A stretch of DNA of 53,018 bases from an uncultured Burkholderiales bacterium (GTDB lineage Bacteria > Pseudomonadota > Gammaproteobacteria > Burkholderiales > Burkholderiaceae_C): positions 125,161 to 178,178 of the forward strand of contig CAIRQX010000103.1 of NCBI GenBank assembly GCA_903880855.1, read 5' to 3'. Positions 7,623 to 47,552 of this stretch are shown piece by piece. The first letter of the stretch is position 1. Each line of letters starts with the position of its first letter. The notes beneath the pieces are model-generated. The model had not been told where the DNA came from. It saw nothing but the letters and a program-made list of their open reading frames with translations, and did no database searches. A program made the position numbers and the translations under genes.

Positions 7623-8402
7623 TTAGGAAGTTTTGGCAACTTTGGCGGCCTTGCCTTCTAAGAAGTCGCGTACCCGTTGCTTGGCTTCGGGGGCAGACTG
7701 GGCGATGGCAGCCATCATGGCTTCAGTGAAAAAACCTTGGTCAGCGGGTTGCTCGGCAATGCGGGGCAGGGCGTGCATCAGCGCGTAATTAGTGAGCGGT
7801 GCGTTGGTCGCCACGCGTTGTGCGATTTCCATCGCTTTGTCAAATGCGGTTCCGGCGGGAACTAAATATTGCGCCATGCCAATGCGTTCGCCGTCTTGTG
7901 CGTTGTAGACACGGCCTGTGAGCATCATGTCGGTCATACGCGCCACGCCAATTAGGCGCGGAATACGCACGGAGCCGCCGCCTCCCACAAAAATACCGCG
8001 CGTACCTTCTGGCAATGCGTAAAAGGTGGACTCGTCTGCCACTCGGATGTGACAAGCGCTAGCCAGCTCTAAGCCGCCGCCCACCACCGCGCCGTGCAAT
8101 GCGGCGATGACGGGAACATTGCCAGACTGCACGCGGTCTAGGGCTGTGTGCCAAGAGCGCGAGTGGTAGAGGCCTTCGCCCGCGTCGCGTTCCTTGAGTT
8201 CGCTGAGGTCAAGGCCTGCGCAAAAGTGATCGCCATCACCAGCGACCACTGCAGCGCGCGCTTCTTTTGGGAGGTTCTCGAAAATGTGGCGTAGTGAAGC
8301 AATCAGTCCGTCGTTCAAAGCGTTGCGTTTGGTGGGGCGCGTCAGTCGCACGATGGCAACGCTGCCTTGCATCTCTAAATGAATATCTGGGTTGGAGTTC
8401 AT
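7623..8402 (-). CDS. Enoyl-CoA hydratase/isomerase (crotonase) family protein
   Basis: A 259-aa full-length crotonase. The oxyanion-hole segments HFCAGLDLSEL (59-69) and HGAVVGGGLELAS (103-115) are intact. The first catalytic glutamate is E132 in LPEGTRGIF. The second canonical glutamate position (MTDMMLTG) is Asp. It is the first gene of the minus arm and upstream of the CoA ligase, so it most likely hydrates the arylacryloyl-CoA. It could instead be a hydratase-lyase, but no aldehyde dehydrogenase accompanies it. The presence of an SDR and an amidohydrolase on the other arm favours simple hydration. Confidence 0.88.
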   Translation of the reverse strand: MNSNPDIHLEMQGSVAIVRLTRPTKRNALNDGLIASLRHIFENLPKEARAAVVAGDGDHFCAGLDLSELKERDAGEGLYHSRSWHTALDRVQSGNVPVIAALHGAVVGGGLELASACHIRVADESTFYALPEGTRGIFVGGGGSVRIPRLIGVARMTDMMLTGRVYNAQDGERIGMAQYLVPAGTAFDKAMEIAQRVATNAPLTNYALMHALPRIAEQPADQGFFTEAMMAAIAQSAPEAKQRVRDFLEGKAAKVAKTS

Positions 8403-8481
8403 GTTCTAACTAGGTATGTGTTTTTGTATGTAACAAGGATGGCGTTTGGTTTTTAAAACGTCTTGGGGTTTGTGGGCTTGC

Positions 8482-8516
8482 ATTGGACGATTATTTGGAT
8501 TATGGTTATGTCCAAT
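8482..8516. promoter_or_regulatory. Inverted repeat in the divergent promoter region of the aromatic cluster
   Basis: Perfect 7-bp arms ATTGGAC (8482-8488) and GTCCAAT (8510-8516) are separated by 21 nt. A third TTTGGA copy lies inside at 8494-8499. The element sits in the 165-bp gap between two divergent operons and 52 bp before the amidohydrolase ATG. It is a candidate operator for the MarR-type regulator at 4307-4780. Promoter elements were not resolved. Confidence 0.45.
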
Positions 8517-8567
8517 AACTAATTGATCGGGATTTACCCTCGAAACCCACGCCACAGGAAAGCCAGC

Positions 8568-9437
8568 ATGGACTACAAAAACCTCATCGCCATCGACATC
8601 CACACCCATGCCGAGGTGAGTTGCCGCAACCCGTTTGACAACTACGGCGAGGAATACGACCGCGCGGCCGACAAGTTCTTCGGCTCCGACAGAAGACCGA
8701 CGATCGACGAAACAGTCGCTTACTACCGAGAAAAGAAAATCGGCTTGGTCATGTTCACCGTCGACAGCGAATCGCAACTTGGCCGTCGTCGCATTCCTAA
8801 TGAAGAAATCGCCGACGCCGCCAAAGCCAACAGCGACATGATGGTTGCCTTTGCCAGCATTGACCCCCACAAAGGCAAGATGGGGGCGCGCGAGGCAGAG
8901 CGCTTGATCAAAGAAAACGGCATCAAAGGCTTTAAGTTCCACCCCACGGTGCAGGGCTACCACCCTTACGACAAGATGGCGTGGCCGATTTACGACGTTA
9001 TCAACCATTACAAATTGCCCGCGATTTTTCATACCGGCCACAGCGGTATTGGCAGTGGCATGCGTTGCGGCGGTGGCTTGCGTTTGGCCTACAGCAACCC
9101 TATGCACTTAGACGACGTCGCCATCGACTGGCCCGATATGCAAATCGTGATGGCGCATCCGAGCTTCCCATGGCAAGATGAAGCGCTGAGTGTGGCGACC
9201 CACAAGCCCAATGTGTGGATCGATCTTTCCGGTTGGAGTCCGAAATATTTCCCCAAGCAACTGGTGCAATACGCCAACACCTTGCTCAAAGACCGTGTGC
9301 TGTTTGGCAGCGATTACCCGCTGATCACGCCAGAGCGCTGGATGAAAGACTTTGAAGTTGCAGGATTTAAGCCAGAAGTGATGCCTGGCATCTTGAAAGA
9401 CAACGCTGTCAGGCTATTGGGATTGGATAAAGTCTGA
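8568..9437 (+). CDS. Amidohydrolase-superfamily (amidohydrolase 2) metal-dependent hydrolase
   Basis: A 289-aa TIM-barrel hydrolase. The N-terminal metal motif is IDIHTHAEV (H12, H14). Later ligands lie in FHTGHSGIGSG and MAHPSFPWQ, and the C-terminal metal aspartate is D249 in FGSDYPLITPERW. The ATG at 8568 is chosen because SD AGGAAA precedes it; an upstream in-frame start at 8523 lacks an SD. Next to a cinnamate-type ligase and hydratase it recalls CouO of Rhodococcus jostii, an amidohydrolase-superfamily enzyme that cleaves aryl-beta-ketopropionyl-CoA (retro-Claisen) and needs an equivalent Asp. That function is inference; family assignment is firm. Confidence 0.87.
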   Translation: MDYKNLIAIDIHTHAEVSCRNPFDNYGEEYDRAADKFFGSDRRPTIDETVAYYREKKIGLVMFTVDSESQLGRRRIPNEEIADAAKANSDMMVAFASIDPHKGKMGAREAERLIKENGIKGFKFHPTVQGYHPYDKMAWPIYDVINHYKLPAIFHTGHSGIGSGMRCGGGLRLAYSNPMHLDDVAIDWPDMQIVMAHPSFPWQDEALSVATHKPNVWIDLSGWSPKYFPKQLVQYANTLLKDRVLFGSDYPLITPERWMKDFEVAGFKPEVMPGILKDNAVRLLGLDKV

Positions 9438-39269: not shown

Positions 39270-40283
39270 TCAATCAGCAGTCAACTGGTTTTCGATAATG
39301 ATGCGCGCGTAACGTTTTCTGTCATTGGCGATCAACTCTGCAAATTGTGCTGGTGTTGAGCTCATAGGAACAGCACCTTGCCCAATCAATTGCTGACTCA
39401 CCTCGGGCATGGCAACCACCTCTTTGACACCCGCCACAATTTTGTCGATGATCTCTTTGGGCGTGCCAGTGGGTGCCAGAAAGCCAATCCAAGAACCTGA
39501 CTCAGCACCCGTGATACCTGCTTCCACCATGGTCGGAACATCTGGCATGGCAGGTGAACGCACTTTGCTCGTGACAGCCAGTCCTTTCAATTTACCGGCT
39601 TTGACGTAGGCAGACGTCTCCAAGATAGAGACCATCAACACTTGTACATTGCCCGACATCAAGTCGGTAATAGCAGCACTGCCGCCTTTATAGGGCACGT
39701 GTTGAATTTTGGCGCCGGTTGCAATTTTGAAAGTCTCCATTGACAAATGGGGAGAACCTCCGGAACCAGAGCTAGCGTAAGAGAGCAGGTTAGGTTGCGC
39801 CTTAGATAACGCCACCAAGTCTTGCGGCGTTTTAACTGGCAATGAGGGCGTTACCACCATTGCAAAAGGCAATTCTGCAATCAAGCTGATGGGTGTGAAT
39901 GAGGTGTCTGGGTTGTAGTTGAGTTTTTTATACAGCGTGGGGTTAATAGACTGCGTGCCCACATTGCCAGTGAGCAGTGTGTAGCCGTCAGGCTTTGCAC
40001 GGGATACAGCTTCTAGGCCCACATTGCCGCCAGCACCGGCACGGTTTTCAATCAATACGGGTTGGCCCCACAGTTGCGACAAACGTTGCGCGACGACCCG
40101 CGTCCCGACATCGGTTCCACCGCCAGGAGTGAATGGCACAACAATAGTGACTGCTCGCGTGGGCCAAGTGGTTTGTGCGTGGACACCTAAGGGTAAAAAC
40201 GCCAATAGACTGGCTAAAAGTGAAATATGTTTCCGATGACAAAATAGCGCTTGTAAATTTAGACCTTTAAACACTTCAGCCAT
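39270..40283 (-). CDS. Bug/TctC-type periplasmic solute-binding protein
   Basis: A 337-aa receptor. The ligand-loop motif is VPFTPGGGTDVGTR, and the second loop is NRAGAGGNVGLEAVSRAKPDGY. The signal is unusual: about 22 residues with Cys and His (QALFCHRKH) precede the hydrophobic LLASLLAFLPLGVHAQ. The ATG at 40283 is chosen because GGAG lies six nt upstream on the minus strand; a TTG at 40295 would leave two bp to the divergent gene. Proximity to tcuAB makes tricarballylate a candidate ligand (inference). Confidence 0.9.
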   Translation of the reverse strand: MAEVFKGLNLQALFCHRKHISLLASLLAFLPLGVHAQTTWPTRAVTIVVPFTPGGGTDVGTRVVAQRLSQLWGQPVLIENRAGAGGNVGLEAVSRAKPDGYTLLTGNVGTQSINPTLYKKLNYNPDTSFTPISLIAELPFAMVVTPSLPVKTPQDLVALSKAQPNLLSYASSGSGGSPHLSMETFKIATGAKIQHVPYKGGSAAITDLMSGNVQVLMVSILETSAYVKAGKLKGLAVTSKVRSPAMPDVPTMVEAGITGAESGSWIGFLAPTGTPKEIIDKIVAGVKEVVAMPEVSQQLIGQGAVPMSSTPAQFAELIANDRKRYARIIIENQLTAD

Positions 40284-40297
40284 ACATATCTCCAATT

Positions 40298-41287
40298 ATG
40301 AAAAACCATCTTAACCAACTCTCTCGTGCATGGGCATTAGGTCTGACACTATGTTTGGCAGGCACATCGATTGCGCAAACGACACCTTTTCCCAGCAAGG
40401 CGCTCAAAATTGTGGTGCCCAATGCTGCAGGTGGTGCCGCTGACATTACTGCGCGTACGGTGGCACAAAAGTTATCTGAATCGCTTGGCCAATCGGTAGT
40501 GACTGAAAACAAGCCCAGCGCGGGCGGCATTGTGGCTGGCGAACAGGTGGCTCGTGCGGAGCCCGATGGCCACACCCTATTGCTGATTTCTAGTGGAACG
40601 GCTGTAAGTGCATCGCTATTTAAAACGCTTCCTTTTGATACGGTTAAAGACTTCATTCCTGTGTCTAAGTTGGCGACGTTTGATTTGGTGATTGCTGTTG
40701 CCGAAGGCGGGCGCTTCAAAACCTTTGCAGAGTTACTGGCCTACGCCAAGGCTAATCCAGGCAAACTCAATATTGGTACCCCGCAAATTGGTACTACGCA
40801 AAATTTGTCTGCTGAATATTTTCTGAGTGCTTCTGGCATTCAAGCGCAAATCGTGCCGTTCAATGGCACGCCGCCCGTCATCACAGCATTGCGCGGCGGT
40901 AGCCTAGACGCGATGGTCGAAATCTTGGGGCCTCTGATGCCACAAATCAAATCCAATGCGGTACGACCCCTCGCCTTGTTAGGCGATAAACGCACCGATA
41001 GCTTGCCAGGCGTGCCCACCGTGCAAGAGTCTGGTGGCAGCTTGGCTAAGTTTCAGGCGTCTTCATGGAACGGTTTGGCAGTGCCCGCGCGCACACCGCG
41101 CGATGTGGTCATGCGTTTGAACCGCGAAATTCAAACCATCATGGAAATGCCAGATGTTAAAAAACGTTTGAGTGATCTCAACCTCACTGCGCAAAGCAGC
41201 ACGCCTGAGCAGGTTGCAGAAGTTCTAGCCGCAGATATCAAACGCTGGCATGAAGTGATCACCAAAGCCAAAATCGAGAAGCAATAA
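40298..41287 (+). CDS. Bug/TctC-type periplasmic solute-binding protein
   Basis: A 329-aa receptor with signal WALGLTLCLAGTSIAQ. The ligand-loop motif is VPNAAGGAADITAR and the second loop NKPSAGGIVAGEQVARAEPDGH, in which the usual DGY is DGH. No Shine-Dalgarno is visible (upstream is ATCTCCAATT), and only 14 bp separate its ATG from that of the divergent Bug gene. It ends 9 bp from the convergent enolase-like gene. Confidence 0.91.
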   Translation: MKNHLNQLSRAWALGLTLCLAGTSIAQTTPFPSKALKIVVPNAAGGAADITARTVAQKLSESLGQSVVTENKPSAGGIVAGEQVARAEPDGHTLLLISSGTAVSASLFKTLPFDTVKDFIPVSKLATFDLVIAVAEGGRFKTFAELLAYAKANPGKLNIGTPQIGTTQNLSAEYFLSASGIQAQIVPFNGTPPVITALRGGSLDAMVEILGPLMPQIKSNAVRPLALLGDKRTDSLPGVPTVQESGGSLAKFQASSWNGLAVPARTPRDVVMRLNREIQTIMEMPDVKKRLSDLNLTAQSSTPEQVAEVLAADIKRWHEVITKAKIEKQ

Positions 41288-41296
41288 GGCGAAGTT

Positions 41297-42577
41297 TTAT
41301 TTTCTAAAGACGGAACCGCCTGCAAAGCTGGCTTGCGATCCAAGCGATTCTTCTATGCGCAGGGCATGGTTCCACTTGACCATGCGCTCACTTCGTGCAA
41401 AAGAACCTACTTTGAGTTGCCCGACGTTCCAACCAATTGCTAAGTCAACGATGGTGGTGTCTTCGGTTTCACCAGATCGGGCTGAAACAATCGCAGAGTA
41501 GCCAAGTTCTTGCGCTACTTTCCATGCTTCTAGGGTCTCGCTCAGAGTGCCGCGCTGATTAGGTTTTAACAACACTGTGTTGGCAGCGCCAATGTTTGCG
41601 GCCTCACGAATGAGTTTTGCGTTAGAAACTAAAAAATCGTCACCCACGATTTGCAGTCGATGGCCGATGGCTTTTGTAAAGCGCGCAAAACCCTCGGGAT
41701 CATCTTCAGCCAGTGGGTCTTCAATCGATACGATGGGATATTTTGAAATCCAACCAAGTAGCATCTCGATTAATCCGTCTGAGTCCAAAGCGCGTGATTC
41801 AAGACCCAGTCGGTATTGCCCCAACTTGCCAAATTCTGAAGCAGCAATGTCAAGGGCAATGGCAACCTGTTCACCAGGAATAAAGCCTGCGCGCTCAATC
41901 GAGAGCACCAGCATCTCCAGTGCTTGTTCATTGCTAGAAAAATCTGGCCACCAACCACCTTCGTCGGCCACGCCAAAGAGTGAGCCACGTTGCGCCATCA
42001 ACAAACCAGCGTGGCGGTAGACCTCAGCTGTCCATTCCAATGCTTGGGCAAAGCTGCTGGCACCTGGACACACCACCATAAAGTCTTGCACGTCTACACG
42101 GCGACCCGCATGTGCACCGCCACCAAAAATTTGTATCTGTGGCATTGGCAGTCTGCCAATATTTCCTTGGCCTAGGTAACGGTAGAGAGGAACGCCAGAG
42201 GCCTGGGCCATGGCATGGGCTGTTGCCATGGAAACAGCCAAAGTGGCATTTGCACCTAAGCGTGTTTTGTTTTCCGTGCCGTCAAGTGCGATCAGGGCTT
42301 GGTCCAAGGCTAACTGGTTATCTGCATGCGACCCTATTAACGTCTTTGCTATTTCGCCATTGATATGGCCCACTGCCTGCATGACATCTAGTCCCCCAAA
42401 TCGGGCGCCACCATCGCGTAACTCCAATGCTTCACGTGTTCCTTTAGAGGCTCCGGCTGGAGCGATGGCGCTGCCCTTTGCGCCATCCTGCAAAGTGACT
42501 TCTGCTTCTACGGTGGGACGGCCACGACTGTCCCAAACGCGGCGTCCGTGAATGGATTGGATGGCAGACGAAGTCAT
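41297..42577 (-). CDS. Divergent enolase-family protein (aberrant active site)
   Basis: A 426-aa protein clearly homologous to enolase along its full length: WDSRGRPTVEAEV, GASKGTREALELRDG, DEGG (E206), LDIAASEF (D243), SIEDPLAEDD (E286), VGDD (D313), LLKPNQRGTLSETL (K338), RSGETEDTT, QLKVGS (K389). Metal ligands and both lysines are kept. However, QEFM is QDFM (D165 for catalytic-site Glu), SHRSGE is SARSGE (A366 for the substrate-binding His), and PSGASTG is PAGASKG. It is therefore probably not the glycolytic enolase. The start ATG at 42577 overlaps the kinase stop (ATGA), so the two are translationally coupled. A phosphorylated glycerate-like acid is a plausible substrate. Confidence 0.9.
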   Translation of the reverse strand: MTSSAIQSIHGRRVWDSRGRPTVEAEVTLQDGAKGSAIAPAGASKGTREALELRDGGARFGGLDVMQAVGHINGEIAKTLIGSHADNQLALDQALIALDGTENKTRLGANATLAVSMATAHAMAQASGVPLYRYLGQGNIGRLPMPQIQIFGGGAHAGRRVDVQDFMVVCPGASSFAQALEWTAEVYRHAGLLMAQRGSLFGVADEGGWWPDFSSNEQALEMLVLSIERAGFIPGEQVAIALDIAASEFGKLGQYRLGLESRALDSDGLIEMLLGWISKYPIVSIEDPLAEDDPEGFARFTKAIGHRLQIVGDDFLVSNAKLIREAANIGAANTVLLKPNQRGTLSETLEAWKVAQELGYSAIVSARSGETEDTTIVDLAIGWNVGQLKVGSFARSERMVKWNHALRIEESLGSQASFAGGSVFRK

Positions 42578-43581
42578 GTGGTGAGTTCCTGTGCCCACGC
42601 TTGGGCGATGTGTTGAAGTTGTGAGGCTGGACTGACTAGCAATGCAGTAGCGGTTCGTCTGACGTGGTCACGTTGACTATCTTCGGTGATGTATTCCACC
42701 GGTGATTTTCCGTCGACGCGCGCGAGTAACAGTCCAGGGAGAAGACGCGCCGCCCTGGCTTCAAGCGCTTGCGGTTGCTCCCAGTCGACAGCTTGCAAAT
42801 AGGTTTGGGCTAAAACGCCAAAGCTATGCAAAAAATCGGATGTGGAAGAGGGCGTCCACAGACATTTCAATAACAGGTGGTTGAGGCAAAACGCTAAGTC
42901 AAATGCAGGGTCACTCCAAGTAGCGCATTCCGCATCTAGTAAAACAGGACCGTTCTTGCCTAACAAAATGTTTTTGGGGCTGACATCGCCGTGCACCAAA
43001 GTTTTGGCGTTTTGCTGCGTTTGTGCGACTAGCGCATGCAATGCGCTAGCGAGCTTGGGGTGTCTCTCGGCAGTAGCCATCAAGTAGGGTGCCAATCGGA
43101 TTTCAAAAAATATTTTGTCGGTTGGAAACTCTTGCGCCAACTCTGACCTCTTGGCTGCATAGCTGTGGATGCTGGCCAGAATATGGCCCAGTTCTTTGGC
43201 GGTGGATGCGTCTACGCGCCCAGCATGCAGTTCTTTTTTCCAAAGTTGAAAGTCGGATGGTGGCAAGTAGCGCATGACAAGTACGCCAAGTTCTGCGTGT
43301 TGTCCTAGTAATTCAGGAGCACTACCTGCCCTAGCCAAATGCGCGATTTGCAGCCAACGTGCTTCATACTGATTACGCTCAACAGGTGCGCGCCAATCAG
43401 CCGCCACCCGAAGTTTCGACAAGGCACGCTTGGCGCATACACGACCATCTTCTGTTTCAATGCACCAGATATCTGAGGACACGCCTCCGGTTAGTGGACT
43501 ACCTTGCAGTGCACTGGATTTGGTGAGGCCAAGTTCTTGTAAGGCTCTTACGAACTCTTTGGGTACTTCTTCTGTAGACAT
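42574..43581 (-). CDS. APH/choline-kinase-type phosphotransferase
   Basis: A 335-aa small-molecule kinase of the aminoglycoside phosphotransferase fold. The catalytic loop is LVHGDVSPKNILL (H197, D199, N204), the metal motif LLDAECATWSDPAFDLA (D216, E218), and the ATP lysine is probably K51 in VCAKRA. The start at 43581 is chosen; an extension to 43932 would run through the divergent aldolase gene. It is upstream of and overlapping the enolase-like gene, which points to a metabolic kinase supplying a phosphorylated acid rather than an antibiotic-resistance enzyme (inference). Confidence 0.88.
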   Translation of the reverse strand: MSTEEVPKEFVRALQELGLTKSSALQGSPLTGGVSSDIWCIETEDGRVCAKRALSKLRVAADWRAPVERNQYEARWLQIAHLARAGSAPELLGQHAELGVLVMRYLPPSDFQLWKKELHAGRVDASTAKELGHILASIHSYAAKRSELAQEFPTDKIFFEIRLAPYLMATAERHPKLASALHALVAQTQQNAKTLVHGDVSPKNILLGKNGPVLLDAECATWSDPAFDLAFCLNHLLLKCLWTPSSTSDFLHSFGVLAQTYLQAVDWEQPQALEARAARLLPGLLLARVDGKSPVEYITEDSQRDHVRRTATALLVSPASQLQHIAQAWAQELTT

Positions 43582-43621: not shown

Positions 43622-44395
43622 ATGAAACCCAACAAAATTAAGCAATTATGGGCGCAAGGCAAGCCTGTTACTTTGGGATGGATCTCTATCGCCAACAGCT
43701 TCTCCGCTGAAATCACGGCCAGACAAGGTTTTGATGCAGTCTGTGTCGATATGCAACATGGTGTCACGGACTTGGGCAGCTTGATGGAAATGCTGCAAGC
43801 AGTTTCAGCGACCGATGCGGCTCCAGTCGTGCGTGTCGGTTGGAATGAACCCGCCGCCATCATGAAAGCACTGGACTTTGGCGCCGTTGCCATCATCGTT
43901 CCCCTAATCAATAACGCCGAGGAAGCCCGCAAAGCTGTTTCGGCATGCCGCTATCCGCCAGTAGGTGACCGTTCGTCAGGGCCTGTCCGTGCATTGCAAA
44001 TTCACGGCCCAGAGTATTTTTCTAAAGCGAATGATGAAATCTTGTTGATGGCCATGATCGAGACCAAAGAAGGCTTGAACAATTTGGAAGAGATTTGCGC
44101 CACCCCGGGCGTAGATGTCATCTACATCGGCCCTGCTGATCTTTCTTACGCTTTGGGTATGGCGCCACGCGCTGACAACCCAGATCCGCTGCATATGTCA
44201 ACGTGTGACCGCATCAAAGAAGTGGCCCATCGCCATGGCAAAAAGGTGTGCATGCATTGCGCGAGTGCTGAGTTTGCCGCCGCATCGGTCAAGCGCGGTT
44301 TCGATATGGTGATGATTACCTCAGACCTCTCCTCCATGATTGCTGGGCTCAAAAGGCAAATCACCACTTTCCACGAAGCGCTCAAAGGCAGTTAA
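43622..44395 (+). CDS. HpaI/HpcH-type class II 2-keto-acid aldolase
   Basis: A 257-aa metal-dependent pyruvate aldolase. Active-site residues are visible: H46 (VDMQHGV), R71 (VVRVGW), E147 (AMIETKEGLNN) and D173 (IGPADLSYALG), matching HpaI H45, R70, E149 and D175. Typical reactions cleave 4-hydroxy-2-keto acids to pyruvate plus an aldehyde such as tartronate semialdehyde or succinate semialdehyde. It diverges from the kinase-enolase pair across 40 bp and converges on a HIBADH-type reductase. Confidence 0.93.
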   Translation: MKPNKIKQLWAQGKPVTLGWISIANSFSAEITARQGFDAVCVDMQHGVTDLGSLMEMLQAVSATDAAPVVRVGWNEPAAIMKALDFGAVAIIVPLINNAEEARKAVSACRYPPVGDRSSGPVRALQIHGPEYFSKANDEILLMAMIETKEGLNNLEEICATPGVDVIYIGPADLSYALGMAPRADNPDPLHMSTCDRIKEVAHRHGKKVCMHCASAEFAAASVKRGFDMVMITSDLSSMIAGLKRQITTFHEALKGS

Positions 44396-44409
44396 AGCAA
44401 GCTTAACTG
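44389..44409. terminator. Hairpin spanning both stop codons of convergent genes
   Basis: CAGTTAA (44389-44395) and TTAACTG (44403-44409) are perfect 7-bp arms with a 7-nt loop. Each arm carries the stop codon of one gene (aldolase plus, reductase minus). The loop bases AGC and GC could extend pairing with one bulged A. No T tract. Confidence 0.35.
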
Positions 44410-45317
44410 TGCGTAGGCGCTGGCACTTGACTGCGGTCAACCCCTGCTAAGCGTTCCATCACAGCACATACCGCTGCGGTATCTGACATTTTCATGCCCT
44501 GCGCCACAGCAGCGGCATGGATGTTGGAAGCCAATGAAAACAAAGGTGTGGGGCAATCAATGCTTTGCGCATACTGGCCAATCACAGACAAATCTTTGCC
44601 CATGGTGACAAACGTAGCGGATACGTTTTCGTCGTAGGTGTTTTTCACCATCATGGGGCCACGTACTTCAAAGATGCGTGAGGTCGCTGCGCTGCCGCAC
44701 AGCACGTCATAAATCGTCTCAGGCGCAATGCCGGCTTTCATACCAAAAGCCATGGCCTCTGCGGTGGATACGTTATGAATGGCCACCAATAAATTGGCCA
44801 CATACTTCATGCGACTTCCATTACCAAAAACGCCTAGGTGATGTGCAACACGGCCCATGGCTAAAAGGGCTGGACGCATAAGGTCATACGACGCCTTGTC
44901 GCCACTGGCGAAAAAAACCAAATCACCTTTTGCAGCCTGCGCGCCTGTTCCACTGACAGGGCAATCCAAAAGCGTGACACCTGCAGCGGTGAGAGCTTCA
45001 TAGGCTTGTTCTTTGTCGCTTAATGCCAATGTGCATGTGTCGGCCACCACGATAGGGCGACCCACTTCTGTTAATCCGTTGGGGCCAGACATCACTGCAT
45101 GAAAGGCTTTGGGTGTGGGCAAAGAGGTGACGACTAAGTCACATTTGCGCCCTACATCGGCAGGTGAAGTGGCAGCTTGCAGTCCTTCTGCTTGGAGTGT
45201 TTTGATTTTTGCGGTGTCGACATCAAAACCAATGACCTTAAAACCTTTACCCATTAAATTGCGTGCGTAAGCCGCACCCATAATGCCAAGCCCAATAACG
45301 CCGATAGTTGTATCCAT
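44403..45317 (-). CDS. 3-hydroxyisobutyrate dehydrogenase-family reductase (GarR/tartronate-semialdehyde-reductase-like)
   Basis: A 304-aa beta-hydroxyacid dehydrogenase. The Rossmann motif is IGVIGLGIMGAAYARN (GxGxxG at 9-14), the substrate loop DCPVSGTGAQAAKGDL (118-132), and the catalytic lysine K171 in RMKYVANLL. Placed between an HpaI aldolase and a TarD-type dehydratase, it may reduce the aldehyde released by the aldolase to a glycerate-like acid. It differs clearly from the second family member at 15920, which has a VGGS substrate loop. Confidence 0.9.
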   Translation of the reverse strand: MDTTIGVIGLGIMGAAYARNLMGKGFKVIGFDVDTAKIKTLQAEGLQAATSPADVGRKCDLVVTSLPTPKAFHAVMSGPNGLTEVGRPIVVADTCTLALSDKEQAYEALTAAGVTLLDCPVSGTGAQAAKGDLVFFASGDKASYDLMRPALLAMGRVAHHLGVFGNGSRMKYVANLLVAIHNVSTAEAMAFGMKAGIAPETIYDVLCGSAATSRIFEVRGPMMVKNTYDENVSATFVTMGKDLSVIGQYAQSIDCPTPLFSLASNIHAAAVAQGMKMSDTAAVCAVMERLAGVDRSQVPAPTHS

Positions 45318-45390: not shown

Positions 45391-46356
45391 ATGAAATTCA
45401 TCATGCGTATCGTTATCAGTTTTATTGCTCTGTTGTTGTCTGTTGCTTCCATAGCCCAGACTTACCCTAATAAACCGGTGCGCATCATCGTACCTTTTGC
45501 AACAGGTGGTCCTACGGACTCTATGGCGCGCATCTTGGCTCAGAAATTGACTGAAAGCATGGGCCAATCCTATGTGGTCGAAAACCGCGCAGGTGCTGGT
45601 GGCAATATTGGTATGGGTATGGGTGCCAAAGCCGCACCGGATGGCTATACGTTGACGATGGTCAGCAGTAGCTTTGTTGTCAATCCCAGTCTCTATGCCA
45701 ACGTGCCTTATGACGCCTACAAAGACTTCTTACCCATTTCGTTGGCTGGAGCCTCGCCCAATTTGATCGTGGTGCATCCTTCTGTTCCTGCAAAAACGGT
45801 TCAAGAACTCATTGCGCTGATCCGCGCAAACCCAGGCAAATACAGCTTCGCGCATCCTGGTGTGGGTACTACGCCCCATCTCTCCGGTGAATTGCTTCGC
45901 TTGTCTTTCAATATTGATATGGTGAGCGCACCATTTGGTGGAGCAGGTCCTGCTATTACTTCAGTCCTTGCAGGACACACACCGGTGGGCGTGACAGCGT
46001 TGCCTCCAGCCATGGTGCATGTGAAAAGTGGCGCCTTGCGTGCGCTCGCAGTGACAAGCGCCAAACGCAATCCTGAATTGCCCGACGTGCCCACTTTGGC
46101 AGAAGCGGGTGTCAGTGGACAAGAAGCTGAGACCATGCAAGGTTTGTTGGTTCCCGTCGGAACACCGAAGGCCATCGTGGATCGCTTGCACCAAGAAATC
46201 GTCAAAATTGTGAATCAGCCCGATACCCGTGCAAAGCTCACTTCTATGGGCTTCGATATTGTTGGAAATACGCCTGATCAATTCACTACCTATATCCACT
46301 CCGAAGTCAATCGTTGGGGCAAAGTGATCCGCGACGCAAAAATCAAGGTTGAATAA
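45391..46356 (+). CDS. Bug/TctC-type periplasmic solute-binding protein
   Basis: A 321-aa receptor with signal MRIVISFIALLLSVASIAQ. The ligand-loop motif is VPFATGGPTDSMAR and the second loop NRAGAGGNIGMGMGAKAAPDGY. SD GGAG is six nt before the ATG. It is the first gene of the dehydratase-crotonase operon, 26 bp ahead of the TarD-type gene, so its likely ligand is the hydroxy- or sugar acid that TarD dehydrates. Confidence 0.92.
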   Translation: MKFIMRIVISFIALLLSVASIAQTYPNKPVRIIVPFATGGPTDSMARILAQKLTESMGQSYVVENRAGAGGNIGMGMGAKAAPDGYTLTMVSSSFVVNPSLYANVPYDAYKDFLPISLAGASPNLIVVHPSVPAKTVQELIALIRANPGKYSFAHPGVGTTPHLSGELLRLSFNIDMVSAPFGGAGPAITSVLAGHTPVGVTALPPAMVHVKSGALRALAVTSAKRNPELPDVPTLAEAGVSGQEAETMQGLLVPVGTPKAIVDRLHQEIVKIVNQPDTRAKLTSMGFDIVGNTPDQFTTYIHSEVNRWGKVIRDAKIKVE

Positions 46357-46382: not shown

Positions 46383-47552
46383 ATGCGCATCGTCGACATA
46401 AGAGAGAGAGCAGTACCTCTCAACTCAACCCTTAGCAATTCGAGTTTTGATTTTTCAGAGATGACCACTTCGGTGGTCGCTGTGATCACCGATTGCGTGC
46501 GCGACGGACAACCTGTCGTTGGCTATGCCTTCAATTCCACCGGTCGCTATGCCTGCGGCGCTCAGATGCGGGACCGTTTTATTCCGCGTATCTTGCGTGC
46601 CGATCCTGCCAGCTTGCTGGATGCAACTGGTGAAAATCTCGACCCTCAAAAAATCGTGGCCTGCATGATGCAACGAGAAAAAGCGGGTGGCCACAGCGAG
46701 CGCTCGATCGCCATCGGAACGATAGAGGTTGCCCTTTGGGACGCAGTAGCCAAAGTCGAACGTAAACCCTTGCATCGCGTTTTGGCTGAACGTTTCAATG
46801 GCGGAAAAAAAATCGCCGATCGCGTCTTTTGTTATGTAGGCGGCGGATGGTATTTCCCTGGCCAGACCATCAAAGACCTGCAAGACGAAATGCGTCGCCA
46901 TCTCGATGCCGGTTACACCATGGTCAAAATGAAGGTCGGTGGTTTGCCTTTGTCAGAAGATTTACGCCGCTTAGAAGCTGTGTTGCAAGTCGTAGGTTCT
47001 GGTGACCATTTGGCGGTAGATGCTAATTGCAAATTTGACCGCGAGAATGCCTTCGCTTACGCCAAGGCCTTAGCACCCTTCAAATTGCGTTGGTTCGAAG
47101 AACCCTGCGACCCTTTGGACTATGGTCTCATGGCTGAACTTGCCCAGATGTATGACAGCCCATTGGCGACTGGCGAAAACCTGTTCTCCACCCAAGATGT
47201 GAAAAACCTAGTCCGGTTTGGTGGACTGCGTGGTGACCGCGATGTCATCCAAGTCGATCCACCTCAGGCTTACGGTATTGCCCAATATGCGCGCACCTTG
47301 TCTCAGTTAGATGCCATGGGTTGGCAAAGAAGCGGACTGTTCCCCCATGGTGGCAACCAAATGTCTTTGCATATTGCCGCAGGCTTTGGCCTTGGTGGGG
47401 CCGAGTCATACCCAGGCGTTTTTGGTGACTTCGGTGGATTTGCTGACGATGCGCGTTTGACTGAAGGTAAGTTGAATTTGCCTGAGCGACCCGGCATTGG
47501 GTTTGAAGGCCAGGCAAAACTTTATCGCATCATGCGTGAGTTAGTGGCTTGA
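46383..47552 (+). CDS. Enolase-superfamily acid-sugar dehydratase, D-tartrate dehydratase (TarD) type
   Basis: A 389-aa enzyme, the same length as Bradyrhizobium TarD. Residues expected in TarD fall at the same numbers: K182 and K184 (VKMKVGG), metal ligands D213 (VDAN), E239 (WFEEP) and E265 (GENL), and the acid/base H322 (PHGGNQM). The N-terminal capping domain begins RIVDIRERAVPL. TarD dehydrates D-tartrate to oxaloacetate; a related hydroxy acid is possible because the loops differ (WFEEP where I recall WYEEV in TarD). It overlaps the next gene by one base (TGATG). Confidence 0.85.
   Translation: MRIVDIRERAVPLNSTLSNSSFDFSEMTTSVVAVITDCVRDGQPVVGYAFNSTGRYACGAQMRDRFIPRILRADPASLLDATGENLDPQKIVACMMQREKAGGHSERSIAIGTIEVALWDAVAKVERKPLHRVLAERFNGGKKIADRVFCYVGGGWYFPGQTIKDLQDEMRRHLDAGYTMVKMKVGGLPLSEDLRRLEAVLQVVGSGDHLAVDANCKFDRENAFAYAKALAPFKLRWFEEPCDPLDYGLMAELAQMYDSPLATGENLFSTQDVKNLVRFGGLRGDRDVIQVDPPQAYGIAQYARTLSQLDAMGWQRSGLFPHGGNQMSLHIAAGFGLGGAESYPGVFGDFGGFADDARLTEGKLNLPERPGIGFEGQAKLYRIMRELVA

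Follow-up and report, generated by a model that had tools for sequence, protein, structure and literature searches.

The window, a 53,018-nucleotide stretch of DNA from an uncultured Burkholderiales bacterium, encodes a variant enolase (ENO) and an APH-fold kinase (KIN), which together probably dehydrate a phosphorylated sugar acid different from that of glycolysis. The D165/A366 pair is a fixed signature of the ENO family (residue 366 is rarely Gly), and ENO and KIN both evolve under purifying selection. The usual view of enolase is of a single enzyme catalysing a single reaction, and the label phosphopyruvate hydratase is carried by most of the annotated ENO family members that we inspected; a fixed two-residue change at the leaving-group site and a co-inherited kinase, from haloarchaea to Burkholderiales, indicate a distinct activity. 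It is possible, though somewhat doubtful, that the pair represents an unrecognised sugar-acid dehydration spanning two domains of life, in which the 2-hydroxyl would be phosphorylated and the 3-substituent eliminated by a re-specialised true enolase to give homologues of phosphoenolpyruvate (PEP). If this is true, automatic 'phosphopyruvate hydratase' annotation conceals an enolase family of ancient divergence that acts on something different from 2-phosphoglycerate. A reductase and two orphans, a kinase and a dehydratase, would then be joined into one testable pathway, and metabolic models of genomes with two 'enolases' would be corrected. Until it has been assayed, ENO should not be annotated as phosphopyruvate hydratase.

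Features of the window around the variant enolase (scores are for the models named)
Feature	Coordinates	Strand	Remarks
Variant enolase (ENO)	41297..42577	-	426 aa; D165, A366; TIGR01060 498 bits
APH-fold small-molecule kinase (KIN)	42574..43581	-	335 aa; overlaps ENO by ATGA
HpcH/HpaI-family aldolase	43622..44395	+	divergent from KIN; HpaI 175 bits, GarL 158 bits, both below cut-offs
3-hydroxyisobutyrate / tartronate-semialdehyde / L-threonate dehydrogenase-like reductase	44403..45317	-	best models below cut-off
Mandelate-racemase-superfamily sugar-acid dehydratase-like protein	46383..47552	+	L-talarate/galactarate dehydratase 132.5 bits, cut-off 500

The ENO reading frame (427 codons including the stop) is matched over nearly its whole length by Enolase_N and Enolase_C (PF03952 and PF00113), and its TIGR01060 'eno' score lies well above the cut-off of 300 bits. 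The metal ligands, the base K338, the second lysine K389, the acid E206 and the phosphate-binding Arg and Ser are all present (D243, E286, D313, K338, K389, E206, H156, R367, S368, and S44 are kept), which confirms the original prediction of a full-length enolase with its metal ligands and both lysines. What ENO lacks are the Glu of QEFM and the His of SHRSGE, the residues that bind the water at C3: position 165 is Asp, position 366 is Ala and the mobile loop reads PAGASKG, all as first described. In the part of the Synechococcus enolase report available to us (PMC8996150), a water located 3.5 Å from C3 is hydrogen bonded to His367 and Glu168, and the efficiency of ordinary enolase on 2-phospho-D-glycerate is about 1e5 per M per s. 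His367 and Glu168 align to positions 366 and 165 of ENO, with the offset taken from K339, R368, S369, D246, and the PSGASTG loop in that same part of the report. The replaced residues had been predicted to contact the phosphate/hydroxyl region of the substrate; contact with the C3 water refines this (PMC8996150, available part), and the contacts to the phosphate itself are all kept. The canonical second enolase that had been expected near pyrG/kdsA lies on another contig of the same genome (G000:C122), 30 bases downstream of kdsA, and ENO is thus not the only enolase of its genome.

We determined the extent of the signature from a residue census of 112 loci, from which six recognised duplicates and off-family rows had been removed and which do not necessarily represent 112 species. 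D165 is found in all 110 aligned paralogues, A366 and A204 in 112/112, and W210 in 109/112, while positions 165, 366, 204, and 210 are E, H, G, and A in 21/21 ordinary enolases of the same order and likewise in 7/7 from Selenomonas, Azospirillum, Xanthomonas, Arthrobacter (two), Collinsella, and Priestia. Twenty plasmid loci (including Haladaptatus, Halomarina, Rhodococcus, and Persicobacter) all have D165; residue 366 is Ala in 18 and Gly in two, and residue 204 is Ala in 18 and Cys in two. W210 is not kept in the distant plasmid members. The mobile loop, whose altered sequence had been pointed out, belongs to the signature only in part: S41 is Ala in 106 of the 109 sequences aligned at that position (112 loci), but A41 is lost in the distant plasmid members and K45 falls outside the signature. 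We rejected the lysine of PAGASKG as a functional switch, as position 45 varies across the family (R 40, T 38, K 27, M 4).

Two residues of the catalytic pocket are altered, and in the Enterobacter plasmid members E206 is replaced by Lys, which could suggest that ENO is non-catalytic or moonlighting and that its pairing with KIN is regulatory. We regard this as extremely improbable, given that the ten other catalytic and metal-binding residues show no exception among the 109–112 aligned sequences of the 112 loci and that the dN/dS of ENO is around 0.035 (0.034–0.038 in four of five pairs, the remaining pair being saturated at silent sites). The corresponding values for KIN are 0.065–0.10 in three of five pairs, with the remaining pairs saturated at silent sites. 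The Enterobacter plasmids (L142, 7229–16684, and L149; rep_cluster_1088) carry a very divergent enolase beside KIN, with D165, G366 and E206 changed to Lys. The L142 cluster has a biosynthetic appearance and also contains a D-2-hydroxyacid dehydrogenase, an aminotransferase, an MFS transporter, and a haem-oxygenase-like protein; in L149, KIN is followed by an IS1 gene.

An unrooted tree of 69 rows, obtained by a short search and containing no chromosomal haloarchaeal enolase, parts 48 D/A enolases from 20 ordinary ones by one branch (SH-aLRT 99.7). The haloarchaeal, actinobacterial, and Bacteroidota ENO sequences fall on the same side of this branch as the rest of the family. Long branches (L164, L154, and L166) and odd composition (L154, L144, and L145) were flagged. 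Left out were the two Enterobacter ENO sequences and L019 (very distant) and L020 (a second enolase of ordinary type), and thinning removed a further 19 rows; an earlier tree with those four rows and with ordinary enolases of one order only also gave a one-branch split. L019 itself (7779–8984; G046:C42) encodes an enolase-like protein of 32% identity that carries R165 and A366, with no KIN match in its 17-kb stretch. Compared with phosphopyruvate hydratase, ENO is alike in full-length fold, metal ligands, K338, K389, E206, and phosphate contacts, but differs in the fixed changes E165 to Asp, H366 to Ala, and G204 to Ala, in its KIN partner and in its separate branch of the tree. Carboxyphosphonoenolpyruvate synthase, the enolase homologue of bialaphos biosynthesis, is likewise an enolase relative with a new reaction, a likeness by description only.

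The KIN and ENO genes share an ATGA, read directly at the junction (CACCACATGACTTCG), as the original prediction of coupling to an APH-type kinase had stated. KIN belongs to the APH/choline kinase superfamily (PF01636) by its fold and its HGD..N and D.E motifs, and H197, G198, D199, N204, D216, and E218 are invariant in 36 sequences (35 of 70 suitable loci plus the window). When KIN was searched without its first 20 residues, neither PF02595 (GK-I, GarK family) nor PF13660 (GK-II) appeared among the families up to an E-value of 0.001, and TIGR01767 (5-methylthioribose kinase) scored 48.3 bits against a cut-off of 275; KIN differs from the 5-methylthioribose kinases 2pul and 2pyw, with 17–18% identity, and none of the neighbours recognised is a methionine-salvage gene.

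Searches for the family covered 61 genomes of relatives (the window's own included), named genome contigs (80 loci kept of 159 relatives), 200 genomes of the order, a phylum sample of 398, and a plasmid collection. KIN is present in 127 of 130 ENO loci (129 different ENO proteins), and the other three are cut by the contig end on the upstream side. For the reverse direction, a KIN match of E ≤ 1e-30 was required (40 sampled genomes and 31 plasmid records). KIN occurs in 32 of the 200 genomes of the order, and an ENO sequence adjoins it in all 32 (three partial); it occurs in nine of the 398 genomes of the phylum sample, with ENO and KIN on one contig in 8/8 further KIN-positive genomes; and ENO lies within 6 kb of KIN in 31/31 KIN-bearing plasmid records (20 loci read, 11 from match coordinates alone). 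Whether the D/A enolases always sit beside this kinase had been posed as a test, and the loci bear the pairing out. As the pairing holds in both directions, the natural reading of these sequences is that KIN makes the substrate of ENO. Our literature searches retrieved no paper that we recognised as describing the pairing of an APH kinase with an enolase paralogue. On a Halorubrum sp. CBA1229 plasmid (L164, 5992–8643), among sugar-acid genes, another enolase paralogue (E165, E366, and L156) directly precedes a gene of the DUF4147/MOFRL glycerate-2-kinase family, which makes an independent pairing of acid kinase and enolase.

Neighbouring genes were called by codon usage, a rougher approach than a proper gene finder that misses or shortens some genes. 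A PanE-type reductase is located within 2.5 kb in 36 of 130 loci, compared to one at 4–8 kb, and a D-2-hydroxyacid dehydrogenase (2HADH) in 31, again compared to one at 4–8 kb. The two are never found together at one of the 130 loci and are therefore probably interchangeable. With KARI-like genes in two haloarchaeal loci (the Halomarina one also has a 2HADH 3.6 kb away) and the window-type reductase in two, the total reaches 71/130; 59/130 have no recognised reductase within 2.5 kb. PanE, KARI, and D-2-hydroxyacid dehydrogenases all give (2R) products. Sugar-acid-type genes are found near some loci, all except PdxA scoring under the curated cut-off where one was tested: DUF1537 with PdxA in three related loci (L058, L066, and L100), FAH of the 2,4-diketo-3-deoxyrhamnonate-hydrolase type, a UxaA/GarD-type gene in two loci, galactonate-dehydratase-like dgoD and mandelate-racemase dehydratases.

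The window has neither PanE nor 2HADH near KIN. Its reductase scores 184.7 bits as L-threonate dehydrogenase (cut-off 350) and 170.4 bits as 2-hydroxy-3-oxopropionate reductase (cut-off 397), and L035, a close relative of the window, likewise has a GarR/threonate-dehydrogenase-like gene and an HpcH aldolase. An HpcH-family gene is divergent from KIN in Haladaptatus too (L144). The mandelate-racemase-superfamily protein may belong to the pathway. E. coli breaks down hexarates by the GarL–GarR–GarK–enolase route, which the window resembles in that a kinase and an enolase adjoin GarL-like and GarR-like genes; it differs in that KIN (minus its first 20 residues) has no match to PF02595, the GarK family, and in that the enolase is a dedicated paralogue. 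Three TctC-type solute-binding proteins, assigned by resemblance, surround the locus (39270–41287 and 45391–46356). The case for the TctC genes beside ENO as a pathway transporter is weak, as they are near in 14 loci and far in eight.

We propose that a module for sugar-acid catabolism is built around ENO and KIN. A 2-keto-acid reductase, its type varying by lineage (PanE, D-2-hydroxyacid dehydrogenase or ketol-acid-reductoisomerase-like, and 3-hydroxyisobutyrate-dehydrogenase type in the window), would supply a (2R)-2,3-dihydroxy acid, the 2-hydroxyl of which would be phosphorylated by KIN with ATP. ENO would then hold the carboxylate through two Mg ions while K338 removes the C2 proton, and would expel the C3 group with the assistance of E206; the product, PEP or a close homologue, would enter central metabolism. 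The residues, the pairing, the tree grouping and the neighbourhood are observed, whereas we infer the order of the reactions, the 2-phosphate and the difference at C3. The C2 chemistry is probably as in enolase, because the (2R) reductases match the configuration of 2-phospho-D-glycerate at C2 and ENO retains the base and phosphate residues. The substrate likely differs at C3, because D165 and A366 are smaller at the C3 leaving-group site and the residues for phosphate, metal, and base are unchanged; D165 retains a carboxylate and could still hold water. Judged from sequence, the best explanation, which we put forward tentatively as having a near-even prospect, is that the substrate is the 2-phosphate of a C3-substituted (2R)-2,3-dihydroxy acid, such as tetronate or 2,3-dihydroxybutyrate 2-phosphate. 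Among the genes near the loci, we recognised none that would use a PEP homologue. The suggestion that ENO works in the reverse direction is favoured by no evidence.

The main rival casts KIN as a D-glycerate 2-kinase of a new class and ENO as a second enolase dedicated to plain 2-phospho-D-glycerate, derived from hydroxypyruvate or tartronate semialdehyde, with D165 and A366 tolerated or tuning the kinetics. Several neighbours could point to plain glycerate and PEP. The window has GarL- and GarR-like genes, and the best PDB matches of its aldolase include hydroxyketoacid aldolase, a crystal of which holds hydroxypyruvate according to the part of the report available (PMC10099721). The one 2HADH tested has its best scores with the models for phosphoglycerate dehydrogenase and glyoxylate reductase, without reaching the cut-off of either; such 2HADHs resemble hydroxypyruvate reductase. 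A PEP carboxylase gene is found no farther than 2.5 kb away in only four loci, all of rhizobial type (L122, L123, with a 645-codon copy, L141, and L152); that of Cupriavidus L151 is 8 kb distant. The Halorubrum paralogue beside a glycerate-2-kinase-family gene fits as well, as do four KIN-positive genomes, listed as 100% complete, that showed neither GK-I nor GK-II (G046, G482, G568, and G445). However, GK-II coexists with KIN in 39/44 KIN-positive genomes (among them the genome of the window), which means that a route for plain D-glycerate is already in place; an ordinary enolase is also listed in most ENO-searched genomes; and two water-contacting positions would hardly stay D/A (rarely G) over two domains of life if plain 2-phospho-D-glycerate were the substrate. 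We consider this rival rather unlikely. Replacement of a missing D-glycerate kinase was rejected as a general reason for KIN, since GK-II is found in 30/36 KIN-negative genomes as well; GK-I is found in 0/44 KIN-positive and 5/36 KIN-negative genomes.

Returning to a C3-substituted acid, two further substrates have to be weighed against it. A leaving group at C3 larger than hydroxyl (sulfite from sulfolactate 2-phosphate, or an alkoxide), with PEP itself as the product, would fit the smaller residues at the leaving-group site and the PEP carboxylase of the four loci; we find it improbable, as the neighbours resemble sugar-acid or aromatic catabolic genes, with none recognised as sulfonate-specific, and the UxaA/GarD-type gene near L138 and L139 matched galactarate dehydratase alone, below cut-off. 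2-Phospho-L-glycerate from L-sugar acids, a mirror-image substrate, would require its own kinase and enolase, and the FAH genes near some loci, which are like 2,4-diketo-3-deoxyrhamnonate hydrolase and accompanied by an SDR, could release L-glycerate; this is quite improbable, in that the reductases form (2R) products and ENO keeps the base and phosphate contacts of ordinary enolase.

An extradiol dioxygenase/cupin/ADH set is found near the loci of Rhizobium, Pararhizobium, Cupriavidus, Paraburkholderia, and Sphingobium. Around KIN–ENO in L141 (9082–26873) and L150–L153, the recurrent mix, which varies in its combination, consists of a cupin, an extradiol enzyme (homoprotocatechuate-2,3-dioxygenase-like), carboxymuconolactone decarboxylase, ADH, FMN reductase, and 2HADH. 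Rhodococcus opacus G13 (L158, 11532–16479) has FolD-, PurU-, and GcvT-type-demethylase-like genes after KIN–ENO, judged from their first residues, hinting at a methoxylated substrate.
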